A stretch of DNA of 64,000 bases from Lachnospiraceae bacterium. Lineage in GTDB: Bacteria; Bacillota; Clostridia; Lachnospirales; Lachnospiraceae. The stretch is from positions 62,001-126,000 of the forward strand of contig JAKSRM010000005.1 in assembly GCA_024403615.1 (NCBI GenBank). Reading direction: 5' to 3'. The notes under the pieces are model-generated. The model was given only the letters and a program-made list of their open reading frames with translations. It was not told where the DNA came from and did not search any database. The translations under genes and the position numbers were made by a program. This document shows, piece by piece, positions 19,164 to 64,000 of the stretch; positions within the stretch are counted from its first letter, which is position 1; every line of letters begins with the position of its first letter.

Positions 19164-19192
19164 TTTTTTCATGGTCGGTTCTGTTGTATAAT
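19164..19192 (+). promoter_or_regulatory. Promoter whose start site coincides with the carboxypeptidase ATG
   Basis: A perfect TATAAT at 19187-19192 ends 6 nt before the ATG at 19199, which puts the expected transcription start on the A of ATG. A weak T-rich -35 (TTTTTT, 19164-19169) is at 17-nt spacing. Confidence 0.55.
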
Positions 19193-19198
19193 GTCTAC

Positions 19199-50770: not shown

Positions 50771-53022
50771 TGAAATTAAGTGATACTCCTGTTGTTATGA
50801 CAGGAATGCAGAAACCAGTTGCAGCAGGACCTGAAAAGAAAAACTTAAAAGAAGGCACCATCGCGTATCAGATCTTAAAAAACCATAACACATCCGGAAA
50901 CATGGACAAGCTCCAGCTTCGTTTTGATAAGCTGACTTCCCATGATATTACCTACGTTGGTATTATCCAGACCGCAAGAGCTTCGGGCTTGGAAAAATTC
51001 CCGATGCCTTACGTTTTAACCAACTGCCATAATTCTCTTTGTGCCGTAGGCGGAACCATTAACGAAGACGACCATGTTTTCGGTTTAACCTGTGCACAGA
51101 AATATGGCGGAGTATATGTACCTCCTCATCAGGCAGTTATCCATCAGTTCGCAAGAGAAATGATGGCAGAAGCTGGTTCTATGATTTTAGGAAGCGACTC
51201 CCACACCCGTTACGGCGCTTTAGGCTGTATGGCAATCGGAGAAGGCGGCGGAGAATTAGCAAAACAGCTGTTGATGAAAACTTATGATGTAGATATGCCG
51301 GAAATCATCTGTGTTTATCTCACAGGAAAACCAGAAAAAGGCGTAGGCCCACAGGACGTAGCCTTAAGCTTAGTCGGCGCAACCTTTGGAAACGGCTATG
51401 TAAAAAATAAAGTATTAGAATTCGTAGGACCAGGCGTTGAAAATCTTTCCGTAGATTTCCGTATCGGTATCGACGTAATGACCACTGAAACCACTTGTCT
51501 TTCTTCCGTATGGCAGACCGACCTTCAGGTAAAAGACTATTATGCAATCCATGGAAGAAGCGAAGCTTATAAAGAATTAAAACCAGCAAACGAAGTATAT
51601 TATGATGGTTGCGTAGAAATCGACTTAAGCCAGATTAAGCCAGTCATCGCAATGCCGTTCCATCCAAGCAACGTATATACCATCGAAGAAGTAAACGAAA
51701 ACTTGGAAGACATCTTAGCAGAAGTAGAGAAGAATGCAGCAGTTAGCTTAGAAGGCGCTGTGGACTATTCCTTAAGAGATAAAATCCGTGACGGAAAACT
51801 TTATGTAGAGCAGGGAATTATTGCAGGTTGTGCTGGCGGCGGATTTGAAAATATCTGTGCAGCAGCAGACATCCTGAGAGGAAAAGAAATCGGAAACGGC
51901 GAATTTACCTTAAGCGTATATCCAGCAAGTATGCCGATTTATATGGAACTGATCAAGAATGGTGTGGCAGCAGATATCCTTCAGACCGGCGCAGTTCTGA
52001 AGACCGCATTCTGTGGACCATGCTTCGGCGCAGGAGATACTCCGGCAAACAACGCCTTCAGTATCCGTCATTCTACCCGTAACTTCCCGAACCGGGAAGG
52101 TAGCAAACCGCAGAGCGGACAGATTGCTTCTGTAGCCTTAATGGATGCAAGATCCATCGCCGCAACCGCAGCAAACAAAGGCTTCTTAACCGCAGCTACG
52201 GACTTCGACGTAGATTACACAAAGAGAAATTACTACTTCGATAAGAGCATCTACGAAAAACGAGTATATGACAGCAAGGGCGTAGCAGACCCTAGCGTAG
52301 AAATTAAATTCGGTCCAAACATCAAAGACTGGCCAAAGATGGAAAACTTAAAGAAAGACATCTTGCTGAAAGTTGTCAGCGAAATCCATGATCCAGTTAC
52401 CACAACCGACGAATTAATTCCTTCCGGCGAAACCTCTTCCTATCGTTCCAATCCATTAGGACTGGCAGAGTTTACGCTTTCCAGAAAAGATCCAGCTTAC
52501 GTAGGCGAAGCAAAGAAAGTTCAGAAAGCAGAAAACGCCAGAGTAAACGGAACCTGTCAGGTAGAAGCTCTTCCGGAAATGAAAGAAGTAAAAGAAATTA
52601 TCGGGGAACATTTCGAACTGAAAGACGATAGCTTCTGCATCGGCAGCACCATCTACGCAGTAAAACCAGGTGACGGCAGCGCGAGAGAACAGGCCGCTTC
52701 CTGCCAGAAAGTTTTAGGCGGATGGGCAAACATCGCGAAAGAATATGCAACCAAGAGATACCGCTCCAACCTGATTAACTGGGGTATGATTCCATTCCTG
52801 TGGCAGGAAGAAGAACTTCCATTTGCAAAAGGAAATTGGATTTTCGTGCCGGACGTTGCAGAAAAAATCGCAGCAGGAGCAACAAGCTTTGAAGCTTATG
52901 TTGTAAATCCAGAGGATAAGGAAAACAACTTCAAGCAGATTACATTGAAGATGGATCCGCTGACAGAAGATGAAAAGACCATCGTTCTGAAAGGCTGTCT
53001 GATTAATTATTATAAGGCGTGA
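50767..53022 (+). CDS. Aconitase-superfamily hydratase (YbhJ-like), 4Fe-4S
   Basis: The 751-aa protein has the aconitase N-terminal fold ([20 protein letters not shown], about 142-161), the Fe-S cysteines C355 (AGCAGGG) and C416/C419 (CGPC), the [18 protein letters not shown] loop near 438 and a C-terminal swivel domain ([11 protein letters not shown] near 675). The active-site surroundings differ from citrate aconitase ([15 protein letters not shown] in place of the usual SFNRNFxGR), closer to YbhJ-type hydratases of unknown substrate. It is translationally coupled to the PocR/AraC regulator. Likely hydrates or isomerises a dicarboxylic or tricarboxylic acid; the real substrate cannot be read from sequence. 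Confidence 0.85.
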
Positions 53023-53026
53023 AAAT

Positions 53027-53108
53027 TTATACAAATAATGTATAAGTAGATTTCTGCGAATATCTTCTATATATACTGTTACGAAACCATTATACAAAAT
53101 ATGTATAA
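53027..53108. promoter_or_regulatory. Paired 19-bp palindromes TTATAC-N7-GTATAA, locus C
   Basis: Copies at 53027-53045 and 53090-53108 (centres 63 bp apart) begin 5 nt after the hydratase stop and end 24 bp upstream of the Tad promoter -35. Same 6-7-6 layout as loci A and B. Confidence 0.8.
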
Positions 53109-53122
53109 CAAAATGTTTACGC

Positions 53123-53161
53123 GTATACCTCATTGACAAAAGAAGTATACAAGAATAGAAT
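53123..53161 (+). promoter_or_regulatory. Sigma-A promoter of the Tad cluster with two GTATAC palindromes
   Basis: TTGACA (53133-53138), 17-nt spacer, TAGAAT (53156-53161); start expected near 53168. GTATAC occurs at 53123-53128, just upstream of the -35, and at 53145-53150, inside the spacer, where a bound repressor would block RNA polymerase. Confidence 0.75.
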
Positions 53162-53164
53162 TCG

Positions 53165-53195
53165 AGGCACATCGGAAAACGATGTGCCTTTTCTT
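53165..53195 (+). terminator. Terminator of the hydratase operon, overlapping the Tad start site
   Basis: AGGCACATCG / CGATGTGCCT (53165-53174 and 53180-53189) with GAAAA loop and T-run. Because the Tad promoter starts near 53168, transcripts from it lack part of the left arm, so the hairpin should mainly stop read-through from upstream. Confidence 0.85.
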
Positions 53196-53247
53196 ATGAG
53201 TGGTGAGTTCTTGCCACAATAAAAATCCATAAAAAAGAGGACTGCAA

Positions 53248-54168
53248 ATGAAAAAAATAGTCTTAGCCGTTTTTGACTGCAGCCGGGAGTATATTGATAA
53301 ATTTTCGGATTACATCAAACGAAAGAAAAATCTGCCGTTTGAAATTCTAGGGTTTTCCAATCGGGAAGCTCTATGGAATTATGTGGAATCTAACAAAATT
53401 CATGTGCTTTTATTTTCGCAAGAAGAGCTGGTAGATGATGAAAAATCGGGAGAAGAAACTTGTGAACAATTTATCTCTCATAGCAATGTGGGAAAGTTCA
53501 TCTATCTGGGAAAACAACGAAAAAGCAAATCTACGCTCCGGTATATCAATAAATACCAGTCAATGGAAACGATTATAAAAGAACTACTGGAATTGATGGA
53601 AGTGGATGACACCGAGGAACTACCACAGTCCTTTAAAATGATGGGAATCTATTCGGTTGTTCCAGGAGAGGAAACCTTCCAGGCGTCCTTATCACTGGCA
53701 TCCAATCTGGCAATGGGAAGTTCCATCCTTTATCTTAGTTTCGACCGATTTTCAATTCTTGATCCAGAACAGACCGGGAATTCTTCGATATCCGATTTAA
53801 TTTATTTCTTTAAAACCAATCCAAAACAAATCAAAGAAGAATTGAATAAAGCAGTTGGCCACTATCGAGGCTTTGATTACCTTACGGCGCCATTAGAGCA
53901 AAGTGATATGGAGGAATTGACTTCTACAGAGTGGAAAGAATTCTTTTCCCGATTGGCGGCGGAAGGAAATTACGAAGGGATTGTCGTGGATATGTATGAG
54001 GCTTTTAAAAATCTAGAAGAAATTTTTCATTGTTGCGAGAAAGTCTATGTTCCCATAGCAGGAAATGAATATGCATTGAAAAAAGCAAGAATGCTGAAAG
54101 CGTACTTATCAGAAAGAGGAAGACAGGACCTAGTGGAAAAATTGGTGATGATGAATCTGGATGGTTAG
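53248..54168 (+). CDS. TadZ/CpaE-like pilus assembly protein, degenerate ATPase
   Basis: The 306-aa protein has an N-terminal receiver-like fold (about 1-110: KIVLAVFDCSREYIDKFSDY, IHVLLFSQEEL) and a C-terminal ParA/MinD-like fold (about 125-300: GIYSVVPGEETFQASLSLAS, SILYLSFDRFS, YEGIVVDMYEAF). The Walker A position reads VVPGEETFQA, without the GK(T/S) lysine, so ATP binding is doubtful. TadZ-type proteins mark the assembly site of Tad pili. It is the first gene of the cluster; AAGAGG precedes the ATG. Identification is by fold pattern and position. Confidence 0.75.
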   Translation: MKKIVLAVFDCSREYIDKFSDYIKRKKNLPFEILGFSNREALWNYVESNKIHVLLFSQEELVDDEKSGEETCEQFISHSNVGKFIYLGKQRKSKSTLRYINKYQSMETIIKELLELMEVDDTEELPQSFKMMGIYSVVPGEETFQASLSLASNLAMGSSILYLSFDRFSILDPEQTGNSSISDLIYFFKTNPKQIKEELNKAVGHYRGFDYLTAPLEQSDMEELTSTEWKEFFSRLAAEGNYEGIVVDMYEAFKNLEEIFHCCEKVYVPIAGNEYALKKARMLKAYLSERGRQDLVEKLVMMNLDG

Positions 54169-54233
54169 AGAATTGTAAAAAATAATTCTGGAAAAATAAA
54201 ACTGTTCCGAAGAAAGAAGACGAAGGAGAACCT

Positions 54234-55502
54234 ATGGGATTAACGGAAGAATTAAAAAAAAGATTGGTGAATAGTATCGATTTATCAAGAAATATTAGCG
54301 ATGAAGAATTGAATGATATTATTTCCAAGCTAGTTTTTGAAGAGTACCGGGAAAAACACTTGTCTTTGAAGGAAAAAGAAAAAGTATGCCGGGAACTGTT
54401 TCATTCCATCCGTGGGTTGGACATTTTAGAAGAAGCCTTAGCAGAGGATGAAATTACGGAAATCATGGTGAATGGGCCGAATCATATTTTTATTGAAAAG
54501 CAAGGAATCTTGCAAAAATATGAGGGAACATTTTCTTCCGAAGAGAAGTTGATGGACATTATCCAGCAGATTGTGGCAGGAGCCAATAAACGGGTAAATG
54601 AAGCCTCACCGATTGTAGATACCAGACTGAAAGATGGAAGCAGAGTAAATATTGTATTGAGTCCCATCGCTATTAACGGGCCGGTAATGACCATCCGAAA
54701 ATTTCCAAAAGAAGCCATAACCATGGAGAAATTAATTGCCATGAAAAGCATTACGTCACAGGCAGCAGATTTTTTGGAACGACGGGTAAAAGGTGGAAGC
54801 AATATATTTATCAGTGGAGGAACGGGATCGGGAAAGACCACATTTTTGAATATTTTGGCCGGATTTATTCCTAAAGAAGAACGAGTTGTAACCATAGAAG
54901 ATTCTGCGGAGCTTCAGATTAAAGGAATTGAAAACTTGGTAAGTCTTGAGTGTAGGCCAGCAAATACGGAAGGAGAAAACGAAATAACCGTTCGGGATTT
55001 AATAAAAGCTTCTTTGCGAATGAGGCCGAATCGGATTGTTGTGGGAGAAGTAAGAGGAGCAGAAGCTTTAGATATGCTTCAGGCCATGAATACCGGCCAT
55101 GATGGAAGTTTGTCAACGGGCCATGGAAATTCCCCAACGGATATGCTGACCAGACTCGAGACTATGGTGATGATGGGAGCGGATATTCCCCTAGAAGCAA
55201 TACGAAACCAAATTGCATCGGCTATCGATCTTATGGTCCATCTGGCAAGAATGAAGGATGGAAGCCGAAAGGTTGTGGAAATTACGGAAGTTGCAGGATA
55301 TGAAAATGGAGCCTATGTGATGAATCCCCTATTCGTATATGGCAAACGGGAGATTACGGATGGAAAAGAACATCCAGGGATTTTAAATGGGCAAGGGAAA
55401 AAATATTCCGCTCGTCTTTATCCAACCGGAAGAAAAATGACAAGAAAGAAAGGTGCAGAATTATGGACCTCCTTACAAAAATCAAAGACGGAAATAAAAT
55501 AA
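54234..55502 (+). CDS. tadA: Tad pilus assembly ATPase TadA/CpaF
   Basis: The 422-aa secretion ATPase has Walker A GGTGSGKTT (195-203), the Asp box and CpaF patterns TEIMVNGPNHIFIEK, VNEASPIVDTRLKDGSRVNI, RMRPNRIVVGEVRGAEALDM, and the His-box-like TGHDGSLSTGHGNSPTDMLT. It powers pilus assembly at the inner membrane face. Its 3' end overlaps tadB by 40 nt if the first tadB ATG is used. Confidence 0.95.
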   Translation: MGLTEELKKRLVNSIDLSRNISDEELNDIISKLVFEEYREKHLSLKEKEKVCRELFHSIRGLDILEEALAEDEITEIMVNGPNHIFIEKQGILQKYEGTFSSEEKLMDIIQQIVAGANKRVNEASPIVDTRLKDGSRVNIVLSPIAINGPVMTIRKFPKEAITMEKLIAMKSITSQAADFLERRVKGGSNIFISGGTGSGKTTFLNILAGFIPKEERVVTIEDSAELQIKGIENLVSLECRPANTEGENEITVRDLIKASLRMRPNRIVVGEVRGAEALDMLQAMNTGHDGSLSTGHGNSPTDMLTRLETMVMMGADIPLEAIRNQIASAIDLMVHLARMKDGSRKVVEITEVAGYENGAYVMNPLFVYGKREITDGKEHPGILNGQGKKYSARLYPTGRKMTRKKGAELWTSLQKSKTEIK

Positions 55503-56224
55503 AAATCGAAATGTCCCGCAGGGACAAAATAAAGGAAATAATAACTTATACGATATTGGTATTAATCCTCTATATGTTTTTCCATTCGGTTTTCGTTTTT
55601 TTCTTGCTCCCGGGAATTATTTATTTTTATCACGGATGCTATAAGAGAAGCTTGCTGCAACAAAAACTAGAAAAAATAAATTTGCAGTTTAAGGATGCCA
55701 TAAAAGCTTTGGCTGCAGCCTTACGAGCGGGAAAATCCGTGGAGAATGCACTAAGAGAAAGCCTGAGAGAAATGCTGGTGATTTATGGAGTGGAAGCGCC
55801 CATCAGCAGAGAACTGATCATTATGGTAAACCAAGTGTCCTTGGGAATTCCTTTGGAAAAAGCATTTGAAGAGTTCGCTCTTCGTAATCCAATCGAAGAC
55901 ATCAACACCTTTGTCTCTGTTTTCAAAATTGCAAAACGAACGGGAGGTGATTTAGTGGAGATTATCAATAATACTGCCGATAGTATTGCCGACAAAATAG
56001 ATACGAGGAATGAAATTTCCGTTGTAATTAGTTCCAAGAAATTAGAACAGAAAATTATGTCAATTATGCCATTAGGAATTTTGTGTTATATCCAGGTCGC
56101 TGCTCCAGACATGTTGACGCCATTGTACGGAAATCTAAAAGGATTCTTGATTATGATACTTTGTCTTTTGGTTTATGTAGCCGCTTATTTCCTATCCGTA
56201 AAGATTATGAAGATCGAGGTGTGA
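55463..56224 (+). CDS. Tad inner-membrane protein TadB (type II secretion F domain)
   Basis: The 253-aa protein has two N-terminal hydrophobic segments (about 30-60), the T2SSF cytoplasmic domain (about 75-205: FKDAIKALAAALRAGKSVEN; TFVSVFKIAKRTGGDLVEII) and a C-terminal pair of membrane segments. It forms the platform with TadC. The start is uncertain: the ATG at 55463 lies inside tadA, and another in-frame ATG (MSRRDK) is at 55511. It ends 1 nt before tadC. Confidence 0.9.
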   Translation: MDLLTKIKDGNKIKIEMSRRDKIKEIITYTILVLILYMFFHSVFVFFLLPGIIYFYHGCYKRSLLQQKLEKINLQFKDAIKALAAALRAGKSVENALRESLREMLVIYGVEAPISRELIIMVNQVSLGIPLEKAFEEFALRNPIEDINTFVSVFKIAKRTGGDLVEIINNTADSIADKIDTRNEISVVISSKKLEQKIMSIMPLGILCYIQVAAPDMLTPLYGNLKGFLIMILCLLVYVAAYFLSVKIMKIEV

Positions 56225-56225
56225 C

Positions 56226-57659
56226 ATGATTTATGTATATGGAGGCATTACGATTCTTATCAGCATCTTATTGCTTATATGTAAATCGTATAAAAAAACT
56301 CTGTTTGAAAATGTGGATAAAAGAGAACATCCGTTGAAATTTTTCTATCCTCTTTCTGCTAGATGTCTGGATTTCTTCCGAAAAATCGTTCCGGAAAAAC
56401 ATGGGACAAAAATCGAAACCATGTTAAAACGTCTTTACGTAAAAGAAAATATTGAGAAAGAAAAATATATTTATGATGTCCGAAAAATCGCCTATGCCTT
56501 GGTAATTGTTGGTTTTATCGGAATTATGGGAACGGCGGTTTGCTTTACCAATCAGAAAATTCAGATCATAAATCAACTAGAACGAAAGGAACCAGGGGAA
56601 GGTTCTGACAGTGTTCCGATTCAAGTAGATTACGATGGAAAGACAGAAAATATCAATCTGGAGATTGAGGAACGACAGTATTCCAAGGACGAAATCAATG
56701 AGATTTTTGACAGGGTAAGCGAAGAAATTAAACAAGAAATCCTGGGAAAAAACGAGAGTCTTGACAAGGTAAATCAACCCTTAAATTTAATTTCCGAATA
56801 TCAGAATGTGAAAATCTATTGGGAAATAGAGGATTTAGACTATGTTGCGTATAATGGGGATATCTCGGTGGATAATGTGGATAACCAGGGTAAATTGGTT
56901 AATTTATATGCAAATTTAGCATTAAACGAGGATAAAAGGACCGTACTTATCCCCATTTTACTAGTTCCGAAGGAAACGAGTGAGAAAGAAATCCTGATTG
57001 AAAATATCAAAAAGTCTATAGAAGAAACGAATAACATCTATGATTCTAAGGTAAATCTACCTGAAAAAATCAACGAGAAAGAAATTCAATTTAAAAAAAT
57101 AAAAGAGAACAAAGATCTGGCATTGTTACTTTTGGCGCTGGTAGGTCTTGCTGCCTTAATGGGGCTTTATGACAAAACTCTGGAAAAGAAAATCACGAAG
57201 CGAAGTGAAGAGATGATGATCGATTTTACAGAAATTGTTTCCAAGCTTTGTCTGTTATATGAAGCGGGCTTAAGTGTGTTGAAAGCATGGGAAAGAATCG
57301 TAGAGGATTACGAGAAAAAAGGAATCACGAGATTTGCCTATCAGGAAATGCGTTTGGTATTAGAAAAAATAAAAAGTGGAGAAAGCGAACGAGTCGCTTA
57401 TTCCGAATTTGGAAAGCGCTGCGGACTTCACCCGTATATCAAGCTAGCGAATATTTTGGAGCAGAACATTGCCTTAGGGTCGAAAGGATTAAAGGCTAGT
57501 TTGCAAACAGAAGTAGAAGAAGCGTTTGAAGAAAGAAAACGATTGGCGAGAAAAAAAGGAGAAGAAGCCAGCACAAAGCTGTTGGTTCCTATGATTCTAA
57601 TGTTGATTGTAGTCATTGTAATAATAGCGGTACCGGCATTCATGTCCATTACGTTTTAA
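56226..57659 (+). CDS. TadC-like platform protein with a large extra domain
   Basis: The 477-aa protein ends in a T2SSF domain (about 325-470: FTEIVSKLCLLYEAGLSVLK; GLKASLQTEVEEAFEERKRL) and final membrane segment (LLVPMILMLIVVIVIIAVPA). Unlike the usual TadC of about 300 aa, about 190 residues (100-290) are inserted between two membrane segments (near 80-100 and 292-312). The insert is hydrophilic with mixed charged helices and strands and probably faces outside. It follows tadB at 1 nt. Confidence 0.85.
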   Translation: MIYVYGGITILISILLLICKSYKKTLFENVDKREHPLKFFYPLSARCLDFFRKIVPEKHGTKIETMLKRLYVKENIEKEKYIYDVRKIAYALVIVGFIGIMGTAVCFTNQKIQIINQLERKEPGEGSDSVPIQVDYDGKTENINLEIEERQYSKDEINEIFDRVSEEIKQEILGKNESLDKVNQPLNLISEYQNVKIYWEIEDLDYVAYNGDISVDNVDNQGKLVNLYANLALNEDKRTVLIPILLVPKETSEKEILIENIKKSIEETNNIYDSKVNLPEKINEKEIQFKKIKENKDLALLLLALVGLAALMGLYDKTLEKKITKRSEEMMIDFTEIVSKLCLLYEAGLSVLKAWERIVEDYEKKGITRFAYQEMRLVLEKIKSGESERVAYSEFGKRCGLHPYIKLANILEQNIALGSKGLKASLQTEVEEAFEERKRLARKKGEEASTKLLVPMILMLIVVIVIIAVPAFMSITF

Positions 57660-57701
57660 GGACATAGAGTCGATGAAATAAAAAACAAAGGAGGGAGACA
57701 T

Positions 57702-57908
57702 ATGATTAAAACAATAACTGGTAAATTAAAAAATATTTTTTCCTTCGGTTTAAACAAGATTCTGAGGGATGACGATGGAGTAGGGGTTGTGGAAGTAATT
57801 TTGATTCTGCTGGTTTTAGTCGGATTGGTAATTATTTTCAAAGATCAAGTTGTAGCTTTGGCCAAGACTATTTTCCAGAACATTAATAGTCAGGTTAATT
57901 CTATCTAA
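57702..57908 (+). CDS. Flp-type major pilin (Flp1-like, type IVb)
   Basis: The 68-aa protein has a basic leader and the pilin hydrophobic helix GVGVVEVILILLVLVGLVII (about residues 27-46) with the conserved Glu at position five after the Gly (G-VGVVE). It would be cut by the prepilin peptidase encoded 3 kb downstream and polymerised into the pilus. A strong GGAGGGAG site suggests high expression. Confidence 0.9.
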   Translation: MIKTITGKLKNIFSFGLNKILRDDDGVGVVEVILILLVLVGLVIIFKDQVVALAKTIFQNINSQVNSI

Positions 57909-57934
57909 AGGAGCGGCAAGGCCGGAGGAACATG

Positions 57935-59977
57935 ATGCAAGTGGAAGGAAAGAAAAAAAGAAAAGAATGGAAAGCAAGCATTACCATTTATTTGACTTTA
58001 ATGTTAGTCCTTGTCATGGCACTGATTTGCACTTTAGTGGAATCCGGCCGTGTAAGCGCCATTAATTCTAAGCTTCGAAGTATCACTTATATGTCTGTAG
58101 ATTCTTGCTTTGCGGAGTTTGCAGAACCTTTATTTTCCCAATATGGAGTAATGTTCCTTTGGAACGATGAAAACGAGTTTATTGAAAAGTTTAATAATTA
58201 TGTGACACAGAATCTGACTCTTGCCGGAACCGCAGCAAGAAATGATTTGGTGTTATATCGGATGAATCATGAAGGAAGCGAATTGACCGATATCACTTGG
58301 GCAACCGATGACGATGGCAAAGTATTTGCGGATCAGGTGGAAGAATATATGAAGTATCACGTAACCCAGACCATGATTCAAAAAATCTTATCGGATATCG
58401 GAATTTTTGAGCAGAGTGATCAGATTAGTGGCTTTATGGATCAAGTACAAAGGTACAAAGACATCTTTGTAAAAGTAGAAAAGTCCGTATCGAACATTAG
58501 TGACAAAATCGATAAGGCAAAAAATCTGGCTCAAAATCCAAAGAACTTATTACACGAATTAATGGAAAGTGTGGAAGGCTATGAACAAGAGGGAAATGAA
58601 AAACAGGTCAAAGAGTTTCATTCTCAAATCTCAGAATTAGAAAAAACGAAAAATAAATTAACAGAATATCTAGAAGATATTAATGAAGAAACAGAAACTT
58701 ATTATAGCAGCGTGGCGGAAGCGAAAGAGGCGGTTGGTTATTTGGAAACGGAACTGAAGGAAAACGAAACTGTCTATGACAAAGAAGTCTATAAGGTTGT
58801 AGAAGAAGAACTACAGGATATCAAAACGAAAAGTGCAGATACCGATGCCGATTATTATCACGTTGTGGAAAATGCCAACATCACGAATGGCTATATACAG
58901 AAATTAAATGAGTTGGACGGGTTGATTGAAGATGGAAAAGCGGGTTTAACACCGGAAAGCGCAGCAAGTTTGAAATCGGAAATTGCAGAGTATGAAACGA
59001 TGTTTTCTGATTTTAATTTGGATCAGTTAGGCGTTAATTTTGAGAGCTTGTCTGTGGATCAGGAAAGTGATGATTTTTTAACGGCGATAGCCGATTTGTT
59101 TGAAGGTGGGGTAATGAAATTTATTGCCGGAGAACTATCGGAAAAAATAACCGATTTGTCCGATGTTCCTTCCAAAACGGTGGCCAAGGGAAAAATCCAG
59201 GAAGACCAGTCTTTGAATGGGACCGAAGAAGAGGACAAAGAAAGTTTGTTAGATGTCGGAATCAATAAGGGATTGTTCAGTGAATACGTGATTGAATTTT
59301 TTGGAAATAAATTGGAAGGAAAGAAAAATACAGCACTGGATTATGAGACCGAATACATAATTTCCGGTAAGAAAAGCGATAAAGAAAATTTAGAGTCCGT
59401 TATCAATCGAATCATTATAATCCGTATGGGATTGAATTATATCAGCTTGTTAAAAGACCCTGCAAAAAAGTCGGAAACCTATGCGCTGGCCACATCGATT
59501 ATTGGATTTACCGGTCAACCGCTGTTAATCAAAATCATGCAGCTTCTCATTATGTCTGCCTGGACCATGGCGGAAAGCATGATCGATGTGAAGGTTTTGC
59601 TAGAAGGAAAAAAGATTGCCACTCTGAAAAGTGGCGATGATTGGAATCTGTCTCTGGAGGGACTGAAGAATTTCGCGCCAGATTCGATAGAAGGAACGGA
59701 CAGTAAAAAGGGAATGGGTTATGAAGATTATTTAAGATTGTTGCTGCTAATGGAAAACCGGACAAAGTTATATTTTCGGACTATGGATATGATTCAGGCC
59801 AATATGTGCAAAAACGAAAATGAAAACTTTCGGTTTAAAGATTCTATGCAGGCAGTAAAGATAACAGCAACCTACAACTCACCGAGACTGTTTGTTCTGT
59901 TGCCAATGGCAAATAACGCTTTAAAAGTCGGTGATGGGGGCTATCAGTTCTCTATCCAGCAGGAGTATGCATATTAA
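57935..59977 (+). CDS. DUF5702-type Tad-associated protein
   Basis: The 680-aa protein has an N-terminal membrane segment typical of pseudopilin-like Tad proteins (KASITIYLTLMLVLVMALIC, then LVESGRVSAINSKLRSITYM). It is followed by a long, helical, charged middle region with coiled-coil character (about 170-330) and a hydrophobic stretch near 505-555. It is located outside the membrane if the N-terminal segment is the only anchor. Function is unknown; similar proteins occur in clostridial Tad clusters. I prefer the ATG at 57935, 6 nt after GGAGG. Confidence 0.8.
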   Translation: MQVEGKKKRKEWKASITIYLTLMLVLVMALICTLVESGRVSAINSKLRSITYMSVDSCFAEFAEPLFSQYGVMFLWNDENEFIEKFNNYVTQNLTLAGTAARNDLVLYRMNHEGSELTDITWATDDDGKVFADQVEEYMKYHVTQTMIQKILSDIGIFEQSDQISGFMDQVQRYKDIFVKVEKSVSNISDKIDKAKNLAQNPKNLLHELMESVEGYEQEGNEKQVKEFHSQISELEKTKNKLTEYLEDINEETETYYSSVAEAKEAVGYLETELKENETVYDKEVYKVVEEELQDIKTKSADTDADYYHVVENANITNGYIQKLNELDGLIEDGKAGLTPESAASLKSEIAEYETMFSDFNLDQLGVNFESLSVDQESDDFLTAIADLFEGGVMKFIAGELSEKITDLSDVPSKTVAKGKIQEDQSLNGTEEEDKESLLDVGINKGLFSEYVIEFFGNKLEGKKNTALDYETEYIISGKKSDKENLESVINRIIIIRMGLNYISLLKDPAKKSETYALATSIIGFTGQPLLIKIMQLLIMSAWTMAESMIDVKVLLEGKKIATLKSGDDWNLSLEGLKNFAPDSIEGTDSKKGMGYEDYLRLLLLMENRTKLYFRTMDMIQANMCKNENENFRFKDSMQAVKITATYNSPRLFVLLPMANNALKVGDGGYQFSIQQEYAY

Positions 59978-59996
59978 AAAATTGAGGCAGAGAAAA

Positions 59997-60950
59997 ATGT
60001 CCTTTGTTTATAAGAAAGACCGTCCTATGAAAACTACCATAATAAAAATCAATAAAAAAGGCACCCTCGTGAACAAACAAGGTCTTCATCTGATTAGAGA
60101 AAGGGCATTTTTCTCTGCCTGGAAAGAAAAAGCAAGTCTGACCCTAGAGGCCGCATTAGCACTTCCTATTTTCATGTTCTTCATCATTGCCATTTTGAAT
60201 TTTCTGGTGATTCTTTCCTTGCAGTCGGAAATTCAACTGACTATGGAAGAGACGGCAAGAAGTATTGGCAAGAAGGCTTATCTGGCCGGCTGTGCAGAGG
60301 AATGGATTTCTTCAAGCGATTCCGATGTAGATTCAGATACGGAAAGTCTTCTGTCTGCAGGAATCAATTCGTTAACCATTAAAACATGGATGTTGAAGGA
60401 TGGATTGAAAGAACGGTTGGATCGTTCTCAAATCATTGATGGGTCTGCAGGATTCTACACCTACAATTCTTCTTATGACGAACCATCTGGAATTTTGGAT
60501 ATTGTTGTTAACTACAATTATCAGATTCCGTTTCTCCCCAAATCCATAGGAACGGTTGCCTTGGCGCAACGCAGTTACAGTCATGTGTGGATAGGTAAGG
60601 ACCTAGATAAGTCCGATGGTGGAAAACAAGAAAAGGAGACACATACCGTTTATGTAACTCCTTATGGAACGGTTTATCACACATCGAAGGATTGTAATTA
60701 TCTGGATTTGTCCATTCGTCAGATTCCGGTTTCTGAGATATCAAGTGCAAGAAATGCGGACGGGAAGATCTATGAAAAATGTACCTGTGCGAATCATGTG
60801 GCAACAGGAGATACGGTTTATATTACCGATTATGGAACGAATTGGCATACCGATATTAATTGTTATGGATTAAAGAGAACGGTGAACGAAATCGATATAT
60901 CCGAAATTGGCTCCATGCACGTATGCCCAAAATGTGGAGAAAATCATTGA
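59997..60950 (+). CDS. TadE-like pseudopilin with two C-terminal His/Cys motif repeats
   Basis: Translation from the ATG at 59997 gives 317 aa. The motif ASLTLEAALALPIFMFFIIA (about 45-64) is the TadE processing/anchor segment. Two repeats follow at the C-terminus: VYVTPYGTVYHTSKDCNYL...CTC and VYITDYGTNWHTDINCYGL...CPKC. They share spacing with the end of the membrane protein at 20540-21337. The repeats may bind a metal or form disulphides outside the cell. An ATG at 59967 overlapping the previous gene is less likely because its AGGAG is only 1 nt away. Confidence 0.82.
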   Translation: MSFVYKKDRPMKTTIIKINKKGTLVNKQGLHLIRERAFFSAWKEKASLTLEAALALPIFMFFIIAILNFLVILSLQSEIQLTMEETARSIGKKAYLAGCAEEWISSSDSDVDSDTESLLSAGINSLTIKTWMLKDGLKERLDRSQIIDGSAGFYTYNSSYDEPSGILDIVVNYNYQIPFLPKSIGTVALAQRSYSHVWIGKDLDKSDGGKQEKETHTVYVTPYGTVYHTSKDCNYLDLSIRQIPVSEISSARNADGKIYEKCTCANHVATGDTVYITDYGTNWHTDINCYGLKRTVNEIDISEIGSMHVCPKCGENH

Positions 60951-60951
60951 A

Positions 60952-61383
60952 ATGCAAATGGAAGAAATTGTAAGAGAGATCCTTTTATTAGGCTTTTTGT
61001 TTGTGGCCGCTTGGATAGATTACAAGAAAAAGGAACTTCCCTTGGTATTGATTGTATCAATGGGGCTTTCCGGAATCGTTTTTCAAATCATTGTAAGACA
61101 GATGAGTTTTTTGAATCTGCTTTTCGGAAGTCTCATCGGAATTCTGTTTTTGGGAATTGGGAAAATCACAAGACAAGCATTGGGCTACGGAGACGGATTC
61201 ATCTTAGTCGCGACAGGAATTTTTTTAGGCTTTTCGGAAAATGTGCTTTTGCTTCTGTTAGGAGTTTTGTTGGCGGCAGGTTTTTCTATTGGGCTGATGA
61301 TTTTTCGAAAGAAAACAAAGAAAGATGAGATTCCATTTCTACCGTTTTTATTTACTGGCTATGTACTCTTGTTGATGTTCTAA
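60952..61383 (+). CDS. Prepilin peptidase (A24 family, TadV/CpaA type)
   Basis: The 143-aa membrane protein has the two catalytic aspartates in AAWIDYKKKELP and GYGDGFIL, and about five hydrophobic segments. It is the short, methylase-lacking type typical of Tad systems and cleaves Flp and TadE-like leaders. The ATG at 60952 directly follows the previous stop. Confidence 0.92.
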   Translation: MQMEEIVREILLLGFLFVAAWIDYKKKELPLVLIVSMGLSGIVFQIIVRQMSFLNLLFGSLIGILFLGIGKITRQALGYGDGFILVATGIFLGFSENVLLLLLGVLLAAGFSIGLMIFRKKTKKDEIPFLPFLFTGYVLLLMF

Positions 61384-61400
61384 AAAACCGGAGGATGAAA

Positions 61401-61871
61401 ATGAAAAAAAGAAAATTAAAGGCTGCCTTTACGTTAGAAGCGGCAGTCGTAGTACCGATTGCGATGGTGATTATTGTATCCATGTTGTTTGTTGCGTTCT
61501 TTATTCATGATTGTGTGGTGATGAATACCGTTAGCTCATACATGATTATGGAAAATGCAACAAGATATTCGGAGCAGCCCGAGGCGTTAAGTGACGAAAT
61601 TTTGCAATTGCTTTCCAGGCGGATGATTATTGCTAAAAATATTTCTGCAGAAGTAACGGGTGAGGAAGATCAACTTTCTGTGAAAGGAAGTAGTGATTTT
61701 TATATGCCGATTCCTATGGTACAGGAGTTAACGGATATCTCTAATGCAACCACATCCCTTCGTATTTCTAATTTGAATGGAAGAAAGACGTTGCTGAAAT
61801 ATAAGGTCCTATGTGATGGATTTCGGGATGTAATTGGAAACGCGGAAGAATCGGAGATAGAGGAAACATAA
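61401..61871 (+). CDS. TadE/TadF-like minor pseudopilin
   Basis: The 156-aa protein has a basic leader (MKKRKLKAAF), the motif TLEAAVVVPIAMVIIVSMLF and an outer domain of about 115 residues. It is likely processed by the peptidase and forms part of the pilus base. GGAGG lies 6 nt before the ATG at 61401; an earlier ATG at 61395 is too close. Confidence 0.87.
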   Translation: MKKRKLKAAFTLEAAVVVPIAMVIIVSMLFVAFFIHDCVVMNTVSSYMIMENATRYSEQPEALSDEILQLLSRRMIIAKNISAEVTGEEDQLSVKGSSDFYMPIPMVQELTDISNATTSLRISNLNGRKTLLKYKVLCDGFRDVIGNAEESEIEET

Positions 61872-61898
61872 AATGGACGGTTGTCCAAGAGGCAAGAA

Positions 61899-62834
61899 AT
61901 GAATATTAATTTTAAGAAAAATATCAACCGTAATTATATGGTAATAGAGGACGTTTCGGAGTTTAAGGAAAATAATTTTAAAGTCCAAATGTTACTGAAT
62001 AATCGAATCACGGGAATATTGAAGTTTGATTATGAAGTCATCAATGGAGAAGTAAATTTCCTTTATGACGTCTCCTCTAAGCAGGTTTTTTCAAAACAAT
62101 ATGAAAAGCGAAGAATGTCTTTTGATAATTTGCGAGTTTTGTTGTTGTCTTTGAAGACTATGGTTTATGCGCTAGATGAATACCTATTGGATCCTGACGA
62201 CGTAATCATAAAAAAAGAATGCATCTTTGTTGACCAAAGCGAAAACAATTTTGAATTTTGTTATTATCCATTTTATAACGGGAACATTGTTTTAGAGTTG
62301 CGTGAATTGTTTGGAAATATCCTTCCTATTGTGGATTATGAGGATGACCGCGCGGTAAGGCTGGCTTATGAGTTATACGAAAAAACCCAGAATGATAATT
62401 TTACGATCAGCGATTTGCTGGAAATATTAAGCGAAGAAAATACCAAAGGATTTACCATGATAGATATAACAGAGGACATTTCTTTGAAAGAACAGGAAAC
62501 CTATCCGACAGCATTCAAAGAACCAGAGAAAAAAATATATTCCGGAGAAGTCGAAGAGCAATCATTTTTTGTAAAGTTGTCTCGCTATCTAAAAGGCCGG
62601 GGCGTTCTGGACGTATTGGAAGATATTAATAACGGAGAATTCATGGATCGGGTTCGGGAGTATGGGTATGGAGAAGAAGAATTCAGCTATAAAAATATTA
62701 TGAATACCTATGCAGTGGAAACCGTAAAAGAAGAATCGGATTATGATCTGGGCTTTGAGTTTTATGATTTTGGAAAAGATATATTTGCAGAATCTGGTAG
62801 TAAAAAGCGGATTGACGAAAACAGAAAATTTTAA
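61899..62834 (+). CDS. DUF6382-like protein, without an FHA domain
   Basis: The 311-aa protein starts MNINFKKNINRNYMVIEDVS, with KFDYEVINGEVNFLYDVSSK and FEFCYYPFYNGNIVLELREL. This resembles the domain found at the N-terminus of clostridial FHA-domain proteins in Tad clusters. No FHA domain or membrane segment is visible after it. AGAGG is 7 nt before the ATG. Its role may be regulation or scaffolding of the pilus system; family assignment is from memory and not certain. Confidence 0.6.
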   Translation: MNINFKKNINRNYMVIEDVSEFKENNFKVQMLLNNRITGILKFDYEVINGEVNFLYDVSSKQVFSKQYEKRRMSFDNLRVLLLSLKTMVYALDEYLLDPDDVIIKKECIFVDQSENNFEFCYYPFYNGNIVLELRELFGNILPIVDYEDDRAVRLAYELYEKTQNDNFTISDLLEILSEENTKGFTMIDITEDISLKEQETYPTAFKEPEKKIYSGEVEEQSFFVKLSRYLKGRGVLDVLEDINNGEFMDRVREYGYGEEEFSYKNIMNTYAVETVKEESDYDLGFEFYDFGKDIFAESGSKKRIDENRKF

Positions 62835-62839
62835 CATCA

Positions 62840-62868
62840 TTGAACATCAATAAAAATGTTGTTAAAAT
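62840..62868 (+). promoter_or_regulatory. Promoter whose start site coincides with the rhomboid ATG
   Basis: TTGAAC (62840-62845), 17-nt spacer, TAAAAT (62863-62868). Six bases separate the -10 from the ATG at 62875, so the predicted start is the A of ATG. Confidence 0.65.
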
Positions 62869-62874
62869 AAATGT

Positions 62875-63957
62875 ATGGTTTATGACGAGTTAATTCAATT
62901 TTTTGGACAACAGAATTTTGCGCAGACAAATGTCTCCGGACCTTATTACACCATTGTTGTGAATCGGGTGGATGGAGAGATGATTTTCTGTGTGCTTTTG
63001 CATAGTACCCAAAGCCGGGTTATGTTGGAAAGCACGGTCCTGAATTTTAATAGTCAGATGTTATCTCATGCATCGGAAGACAATATTTTGTTTCTTCTGG
63101 TAACAGACGATATTGAACGAGATAAGCATTTTGTCCGGCTTCCGAACATCAACTTATGGATGATAGAGGAAGAGGAACGGCAGCTTCAGATTTATGATGA
63201 AATGCCGGATGATTTCTATGGAATGCGGTATGGAATCGAAAAGACGCTGATTGCCGGAAAAACCAATGCTTGGGGAACCGTAGGAACCACAACCAGAGCG
63301 ACGTCTTCTAGGGGAACGACCAGTGCATCGACTTCTTCTGTATCTGCAAAAAGGATGAAAAATAAACTGAAGAGTTTTCCTTTTGTGACCGTTGCATTGA
63401 TTGCCATTAATGTGATTTGGTTTATCGTTCTTCTTTTCAAAGGAGATCCGAGCAAGGCTAGTTACATGGCAGAGATGGGCGCAAGCTACGGACCGTACGT
63501 TTTTGAAGACCATCAGTTCTGGCGGATTCTGACCAGTATGTTCATGCATTTTAATTTTCAGCATCTGCTGGGAAATATGATATATTTAGGTATCGCAGGA
63601 TTTAACTTAGAGAAGACCATCGGTCATGTGAAGTATATTTTAATTTATATGCTTTCCGGTATCGGTGCAGGGTTGCTCTCTTGTGCGTACTATTATTTTA
63701 CGGGAGTTAACACGGTATGTGCCGGAGCCAGTGGAGCGATTTATGGTTTAATCGGAGCGGTAATTGTTTTAACCTTTAAGAGCAGAGGACGATTAAGCAA
63801 GAGCATGATGTGGGTGCGGATTGGCATCGTTTTACTGTTCCTGTTTTATTCCAACTTTACGAATTCACAAGTTGATGCAGTGGCACACATTGCAGGCTTC
63901 TTGTTCGGTATAATTTTAACATTATCTTTTTACGGTGGGAGGAAGAAAAAAACATGA
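62875..63957 (+). CDS. Rhomboid family intramembrane serine protease
   Basis: The 360-aa protein has an N-terminal soluble domain (about 1-125), a Thr/Ser-rich linker (about 135-158), and six or seven membrane segments from residue 165. The catalytic serine is S286 in GASGAIYG and the histidine H338 in AHIAGFLFG; the HFNFQHLLGNM segment (near 225-235) is also conserved. It cleaves membrane proteins within the bilayer; its substrate is unknown. No Shine-Dalgarno site precedes the ATG. It overlaps the next gene by 4 nt. Confidence 0.93.
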   Translation: MVYDELIQFFGQQNFAQTNVSGPYYTIVVNRVDGEMIFCVLLHSTQSRVMLESTVLNFNSQMLSHASEDNILFLLVTDDIERDKHFVRLPNINLWMIEEEERQLQIYDEMPDDFYGMRYGIEKTLIAGKTNAWGTVGTTTRATSSRGTTSASTSSVSAKRMKNKLKSFPFVTVALIAINVIWFIVLLFKGDPSKASYMAEMGASYGPYVFEDHQFWRILTSMFMHFNFQHLLGNMIYLGIAGFNLEKTIGHVKYILIYMLSGIGAGLLSCAYYYFTGVNTVCAGASGAIYGLIGAVIVLTFKSRGRLSKSMMWVRIGIVLLFLFYSNFTNSQVDAVAHIAGFLFGIILTLSFYGGRKKKT

Positions 63958-64000
63958 AAGATCCAGAATGCATTTTTTGTAAATTAGCAAACGGCGACAT
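63954..64000 (+). CDS. HIT-family (histidine triad) protein, N-terminal fragment
   Basis: Only the first 15 codons are in the window: MKDPECIFCKLANGD. The pattern CIFCKxxxGD is the usual start of HIT hydrolases, which act on nucleotide phosphoramidates. GGGAGGAAG lies upstream, and the ATG overlaps the rhomboid stop (ATGA). Confidence 0.75.
   Translation, partial: MKDPECIFCKLANGD

Follow-up and report, generated by a model that had tools for sequence, protein, structure and literature searches.

A predicted leaderless rhomboid protease gene with an extended -10 promoter adjoining its start codon in Lachnospiraceae

The rhomboid locus

The window, by which we mean the whole stretch of 64,000 nucleotides from a Lachnospiraceae bacterium that was analysed, carries close to its end a gene encoding a rhomboid protease (Table 1). 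The rhomboid domain (PF01694) covers residues 213-350 (E 3.9e-32). Ser286 of a GASG motif and His338, which we take to be the catalytic residues of a rhomboid protease (the serine being that of GxSG), are invariant in the nine sequences compared. This domain, with its conserved GxSG serine and its histidine, is shared with the GlpG-type rhomboid proteases, whose structures match the same profile, whereas the protein of the window differs from them by an additional N-terminal domain of about 125 residues (window 62875-63250). No Pfam match was obtained for this N-terminal domain in any of the nine orthologues, and its AlphaFold model, obtained from two sequences, had a mean pLDDT of 41 and was too poor to use. 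The closest named relative for the rhomboid protein is "Lachnospiraceae bacterium isolate Horse_feces254", with 93% protein identity.

The gene upstream of the rhomboid is the last of a Tad-type cluster and encodes a DUF6382 protein; no clear terminator was found between these two genes in the window. This DUF6382 gene shows no FHA domain, which is present at the C-terminus of its orthologues in three other genomes of the genus (G011, G006 and G008; here and below G numbers designate genomes and L numbers loci). On the downstream side, the HIT-domain gene is probably the second gene of the predicted rhomboid transcript, because its ATG overlaps the rhomboid stop codon. A HIT-domain neighbour is also found in L002, L003, L006, L007, L008 and L012 (PF01230 in L002). 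In G011 (L004 2190-2756), and apparently also in G010 (L005), a MazE/MazF-type pair is found in place of the downstream HIT gene.

Table 1. Features of the window that bear on the rhomboid start and on the second gene with the same gap
Feature	Position	Strand	Remark
D-alanyl-D-alanine carboxypeptidase (PF00768), TATAAT and 6-nt gap	19187..19198	+	TATAAT 19187-19192; ATG 19199
DUF6382 gene (PF19909), last of Tad-type cluster	61881..62834	+	40 nt before rhomboid ATG
-35-like hexamer TTGAAC	62840..62845	+	read in sequence
17-nt spacer ending in TGT	62846..62862	+	TG of extended -10 at 62860-62861
-10 hexamer TAAAAT	62863..62868	+	read in sequence
6-nt gap AAATGT between -10 and ATG	62869..62874	+	pyrimidine at -1
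Out-of-frame ATG within gap	62871..62873	+	reads ATG TAT GGT TTA TGA
Rhomboid protease gene, 360 aa	62875..63957	+	predicted leaderless start at ATG 62875
HIT-domain gene, start	63954..64000	+	ATG overlaps rhomboid stop (ATGA)

The original prediction had described TTGAAC-N17-TAAAAT placed 6 nt before the rhomboid ATG at 62875, with no ribosome site, and reading the sequence confirmed this. Between the upstream stop (62834) and the ATG there is nothing resembling a Shine-Dalgarno sequence, and the Shine-Dalgarno score of this start is 0. Two features had been overlooked, namely the TG of an extended -10 and the out-of-frame ATG in the gap; the latter also occurs in L002 and is absent from the remaining orthologues. 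The combination of TGT-TAAAAT with TTGAAC at 17 nt has the form of a sigma-A extended -10 promoter (TGn-TAnnnT, with the -35 at 16-18 nt). Moreover, the first T of TAAAAT lies 12 nt before the ATG, as in the TA-led class of leaderless genes, where the -10 precedes the start codon by about 10-12 bp.

Conservation within the genus

The genus comparison comprised 14 genomes, nine of which carry the rhomboid gene with the same N-terminal domain. Eight of these nine orthologues have an extended -10 (TGn-TAnnnT) separated by exactly 6 nt from the homologous ATG. When gaps of 0 to 24 nt are compared, the highest promoter score is likewise obtained at 6 nt in eight of nine. The box itself is variable and reads TGT-TAAAAT in the genome of the window (G000), G004 and G011, TGC-TAAAAT in G010 and G003, TGG-TATTTT in G005, TGT-TATTTT in G002 and TGG-TAGATT in G006. 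All eight box-bearing orthologues have a -35-like hexamer 17 nt upstream, which is TTGAAC or TTGAAT in five of them (L001, L002, L004, L005 and L006), TAGAAC in L007 and L008, and CTTGCA in L012. By eye, no Shine-Dalgarno sequence was seen upstream of the other box-bearing orthologues of the genus. The exception is G008 (L003), which is without the promoter-ATG arrangement and whose start codon is ambiguous.

The mean pairwise identity, calculated over five lineages with one sequence taken per close pair, was 0.73 for the TGn and 0.72 for the -10, and dropped to 0.31 in the rest of the spacer, 0.24 in the flank and 0.20 in the 6-nt gap. As background, TGnTAnnnT was counted 120 times in 46,640 positions upstream of genes. 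The start codon is ATG with T or C at -1 in eight of the nine orthologues, and a T or C at -1 followed by A at +1 is what is expected for a pyrimidine-purine start of transcription. The protein alignment begins at residue 1, with ATG, in these same eight orthologues, and the start codon at 62875 is therefore supported as the true N-terminus.

A second genus and the wider family

In a second genus of the family a rhomboid match was found in 27 of 37 genomes, and 12 of the loci were read (L215-L226). TGn-TATAAT stands before the ATG in 11 of the 12, at a gap of 6 nt in ten and of 7 nt in one, and TTAACA is placed 17 nt upstream of the -10 in ten loci. The leaderless reading thus gains support in the first genus from the extended -10, its spacing, the ATG and the pyrimidine at -1, and likewise in the second.

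Two of the second-genus loci (L224 and L225) have lost the N-terminal domain, yet their extended -10 still stands 6 or 7 nt in front of the ATG now used. In most loci of this genus (among L215-L225) a cacttttgnccaaa-like stretch is found just upstream of the TTAACA -35, perhaps an operator or an UP element.

Across the family, 242 of the 299 sampled genomes gave a rhomboid match. Our survey took in 88 loci outside the genus of the window, drawn from among the matches in these 242 genomes; they comprise 28 of the 30 loci of a first set, whose other two belong to the genus of the window, and 60 more, and their start codons are provisional. Shine-Dalgarno-like starts only were seen in 53 of the 88 loci and neither signal in 24, while 11 showed a candidate -10 box at 5-9 nt. 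The only clear case among these 11 is L123, which belongs to the second genus. L263, with TGT-TATAAT at 8 nt and no Shine-Dalgarno sequence, is a possible case, and L122 is AT-rich and ambiguous. The other eight loci have a Shine-Dalgarno-like start elsewhere in frame. The predicted leaderless arrangement is thus a stable trait of two genera and occurs rarely among the other family loci read, where Shine-Dalgarno starts prevail.

Transcription start and source of the rhomboid mRNA

We consider it probable (about 0.8), judging from the sequence comparisons above, that transcription of the rhomboid gene starts from a promoter of its own, joined directly to the start codon, and gives rise to a leaderless mRNA. 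From one and the same -10, transcription can begin at sites a few nucleotides apart, and the box of the HolB gene described below is found at 6, 8 and 9 nt among species. In keeping with this, the promoter could be real and transcription begin a few nucleotides upstream of the ATG, for instance at 62869-62872, leaving a very short leader; this leader could include the out-of-frame ATG at 62871, which would lower translation of the rhomboid. Such a start is unlikely, given that eight of the nine orthologues of the genus combine a distance of exactly 6 nt with a pyrimidine at -1 and an A at +1, and that the distance is 6 nt in ten of the 11 box-bearing loci of the second genus.

The rhomboid could also be made mainly from read-through of the Tad cluster, with ribosomes starting at an internal AUG that lacks a Shine-Dalgarno sequence, either by way of an AT-rich leader, by S1-type binding or by re-initiation after the stop codon 40 nt upstream. 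The 40-nt gap between genes on the same strand, free of a clear terminator, is compatible with this, as is the fact that starts lacking a Shine-Dalgarno sequence are common in this genome (190 of 587 called starts). Read-through from the DUF6382 gene may indeed also occur in the window, but it is quite unlikely to be the main source of the protein. The DUF6382 gene is found upstream of the rhomboid in G000, G006, G008 and G011, whereas in G003, G005 and G002 the end of a UvrD-type helicase gene occupies that place, and the promoter box is kept in all three. Between the UvrD-type gene and the rhomboid, a hairpin with a T-rich stretch behind it was seen by eye in two of these three (L007 and L008, from G005 and G002). 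The box is also present in G004 and G010, where the contig begins close upstream of the rhomboid. Since it is present behind differing upstream genes, the box goes with the rhomboid gene itself and is not tied to one particular gene order, and co-transcription with the Tad cluster as the sole source of the mRNA, a circumstance named as adverse to the original prediction, is unlikely. Moreover, the gap sequence that would be needed for an AT-rich signal is not conserved.

Other candidate leaderless genes in the genome

A scan for -10 boxes close to start codons was carried out on 803,588 bases (48% of the genome), in which the 587 genes were called, and a box was taken as TAnnnT with at least 4 of 6 matches. 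Before the 190 starts without a Shine-Dalgarno sequence we counted 11 boxes at gap 6 and 9 at gap 7, whereas gaps 10-40 averaged 3.13 each (20 versus about 6; Poisson P 9.4e-6). The genome-wide excess is small and corresponds to about 2.3% of genes. In a first scoring of the starts, that of the carboxypeptidase had been misplaced at an internal TTG and that of the rhomboid was missing from the hits; a rescoring that favoured longer starts and ATG recovered both of these expected starts. The counts at gaps 6 and 7 rose in this way from 9 and 6 of 187 to 11 and 9 of 190, and the later figure is flattered because the rescoring was tuned on the two expected genes.

In the genes with a box at 6-8 nt the base at -1 was T in 12, C in 7 and A in 5, so that a pyrimidine is found in 19 of 24, compared with 138 of 251 genes with a strong Shine-Dalgarno sequence (Fisher P 0.03). 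Partial samples of further genomes gave 5 boxes at gaps 6-7 in G006 (P 0.2) and 4 in G216 (P 0.29), neither of them significant, and a weak peak of 7 in G375, from the second genus (P 0.035).

The carboxypeptidase of the window had rightly been credited with the same 6-nt gap as the rhomboid (Table 1), and its arrangement recurs in 5 of 12 loci of the genus (gaps judged by eye). An M23 peptidase also has the 6-nt arrangement in this genome, and 2 of 12 genus loci share it (by eye). Among the other candidates tested (HolB, carboxypeptidase, O-methyltransferase and M23 peptidase) the best conserved is HolB, the delta' subunit of DNA polymerase III, with TATAAT kept in 8 of 12 genus loci (L133-L144), at 6 nt in five, 8 nt in two and 9 nt in one. 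The HolB gene of this genome lies outside the window (G000:C25:18330-19322, minus strand) and has TGATATAAT 6 nt before its ATG.

The O-methyltransferase gene (G000:C12:47718-48368, minus strand) has TATAAT 7 nt before the ATG, directly after a terminator-like hairpin. Its arrangement was found, by eye, in 4 of 14 genus loci (L147-L160), at 7 or 8 nt; in several other O-methyltransferase loci a hairpin ends within about 30 nt of the ATG, again by eye. Further starts without a Shine-Dalgarno sequence and with a box at 6-7 nt belong to genes for a homocysteine methyltransferase, a HemN-type radical SAM enzyme, a GTPase and a tRNA-deaminase-type protein. In both G375 and G000 a -10-like box at 6-7 nt, with no Shine-Dalgarno sequence, precedes the starts of a TadA-type deaminase gene and a NifS-type aminotransferase gene; the TadA-type and NifS-type designations are presumptive, though the deaminase family was assigned by analysis.

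The original prediction had looked to such a scan for boxes 6 nt from ATG to reveal which functions are enriched, and had taken the rhomboid and the carboxypeptidase as a hint that cell-envelope genes share a translational control by way of leaderless starts. A peak at gaps 6-7 did emerge in the 48% of the genome covered, but the functions are mixed, in a set of about 20 genes of which a good part is probably background. The sharing of the 6-nt arrangement by rhomboid, carboxypeptidase and M23 peptidase in this genome is in line with the hint, which would add to the leaderless reading and not replace it. The same class nevertheless includes replication, deaminase, methyltransferase and radical SAM genes, and the M23 peptidase (2 of 12 loci) and the carboxypeptidase (5 of 12) fall behind HolB (8 of 12, at 6-9 nt), which besides the rhomboid is the best conserved. 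Because the functions of the candidate genes are so mixed the hint was not borne out, and we hold a common control of this kind to be very improbable.

That an AT-rich intergenic stretch merely resembles a promoter by chance would agree with a consensus scan of 53000-64000 (11 kb), which gave 25 promoter-like sites against 31.0 (sd 5.8) in shuffled sequences and so nothing above chance, but it is hardly credible when box and spacing are kept in eight of nine orthologues amid diverged surroundings and recur in the second genus; it is by this conservation in relatives, and not by the scan, that the rhomboid match stands above chance.

Comparison with known leaderless systems

The TA-led leaderless genes described by Zheng et al. 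(2011; PMC3160421) have TANNNT about 12 bp before the start and no Shine-Dalgarno sequence, and a TG before the box is described there for low-GC genomes such as Lactococcus. The rhomboid gene resembles them, as the first T of its TAAAAT is exactly 12 nt before the ATG and a Shine-Dalgarno sequence is lacking. That survey places the TA-led genes of Firmicutes in Lactobacillales and Mycoplasma, with no mention of Clostridia or Clostridium in the text consulted, whereas the rhomboid case comes from a genus of Lachnospiraceae and a second genus of its family.

In Deinococcus-Thermus (PMC12340547), leaderless mRNA is transcribed from a -10 motif lying a few bp ahead of the ORF, with a -35 region as an enhancing element. 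The rhomboid -10 likewise adjoins the ORF and is accompanied by a -35-like hexamer, but there about one third of genes are concerned, whereas the excess seen here amounts to about 2% of the called genes. For Clostridium phytofermentans, which belongs to the same family Lachnospiraceae and whose promoters also show TG before the Pribnow box, PMC5171806 gives potentially leaderless starts as 4% of intergenic sense transcription start sites (TSS), and the genes concerned as a rule possessed a further TSS upstream, together with a typical ribosome site. The rhomboid gene differs from these in being without a Shine-Dalgarno sequence and in the retention of its box across species. In the mouse caecum, leaderless transcripts are reported to account for 10-15% of the TSS of Akkermansia and Bifidobacterium (PMC4782308). 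A literature search covering titles and abstract openings found no leaderless rhomboid gene; the kind of gene being known, we count the rhomboid as a further, predicted case of the established leaderless genes.

Proposed mechanism and biological meaning

If the leaderless reading is right, RNA polymerase with the main (sigma-A type) sigma factor would use the extended -10 and start at the A of the ATG at 62875. The rhomboid mRNA would then have no 5' leader, and the ribosome would start directly on the 5'-terminal AUG, entering, as on other leaderless mRNAs, as a 70S particle or as 30S with IF2. This mRNA probably runs on into the HIT-domain gene.

The arrangement may bring a benefit. RNA reading through from upstream would carry a leader without a ribosome site and would be poorly translated, so that only transcription from the gene's own promoter would lead to protein. 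For leaderless genes in general it has been suggested (PMC3160421) that they keep RNA leaking from upstream operons untranslated, and the position of the rhomboid beside the Tad cluster fits such an insulation from read-through. Insulation would not be the whole reason, because the box persists behind a terminator-like hairpin in two relatives.

A broader proposal, which we put forward as speculative and rather doubtful, is that a small set of leaderless genes (rhomboid, HolB, perhaps the TadA-type deaminase and the NifS-type aminotransferase) has been maintained by evolution in some Lachnospiraceae, each with its start codon tied to an extended -10. If this is true, the output of the set would be insulated from read-through and could shift with the state of the ribosomes (70S or stress) independently of the Shine-Dalgarno genes. 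In the Lachnospiraceae transcriptome mentioned above (PMC5171806) leaderless genes are reported as rare and mostly still provided with ribosome sites. Start annotation based on Shine-Dalgarno sequences can misplace leaderless starts. The distance of 6 nt between promoter and ATG, held across species, offers a concrete case in which to ask whether these bacteria translate leaderless mRNAs and why such mRNAs are kept.
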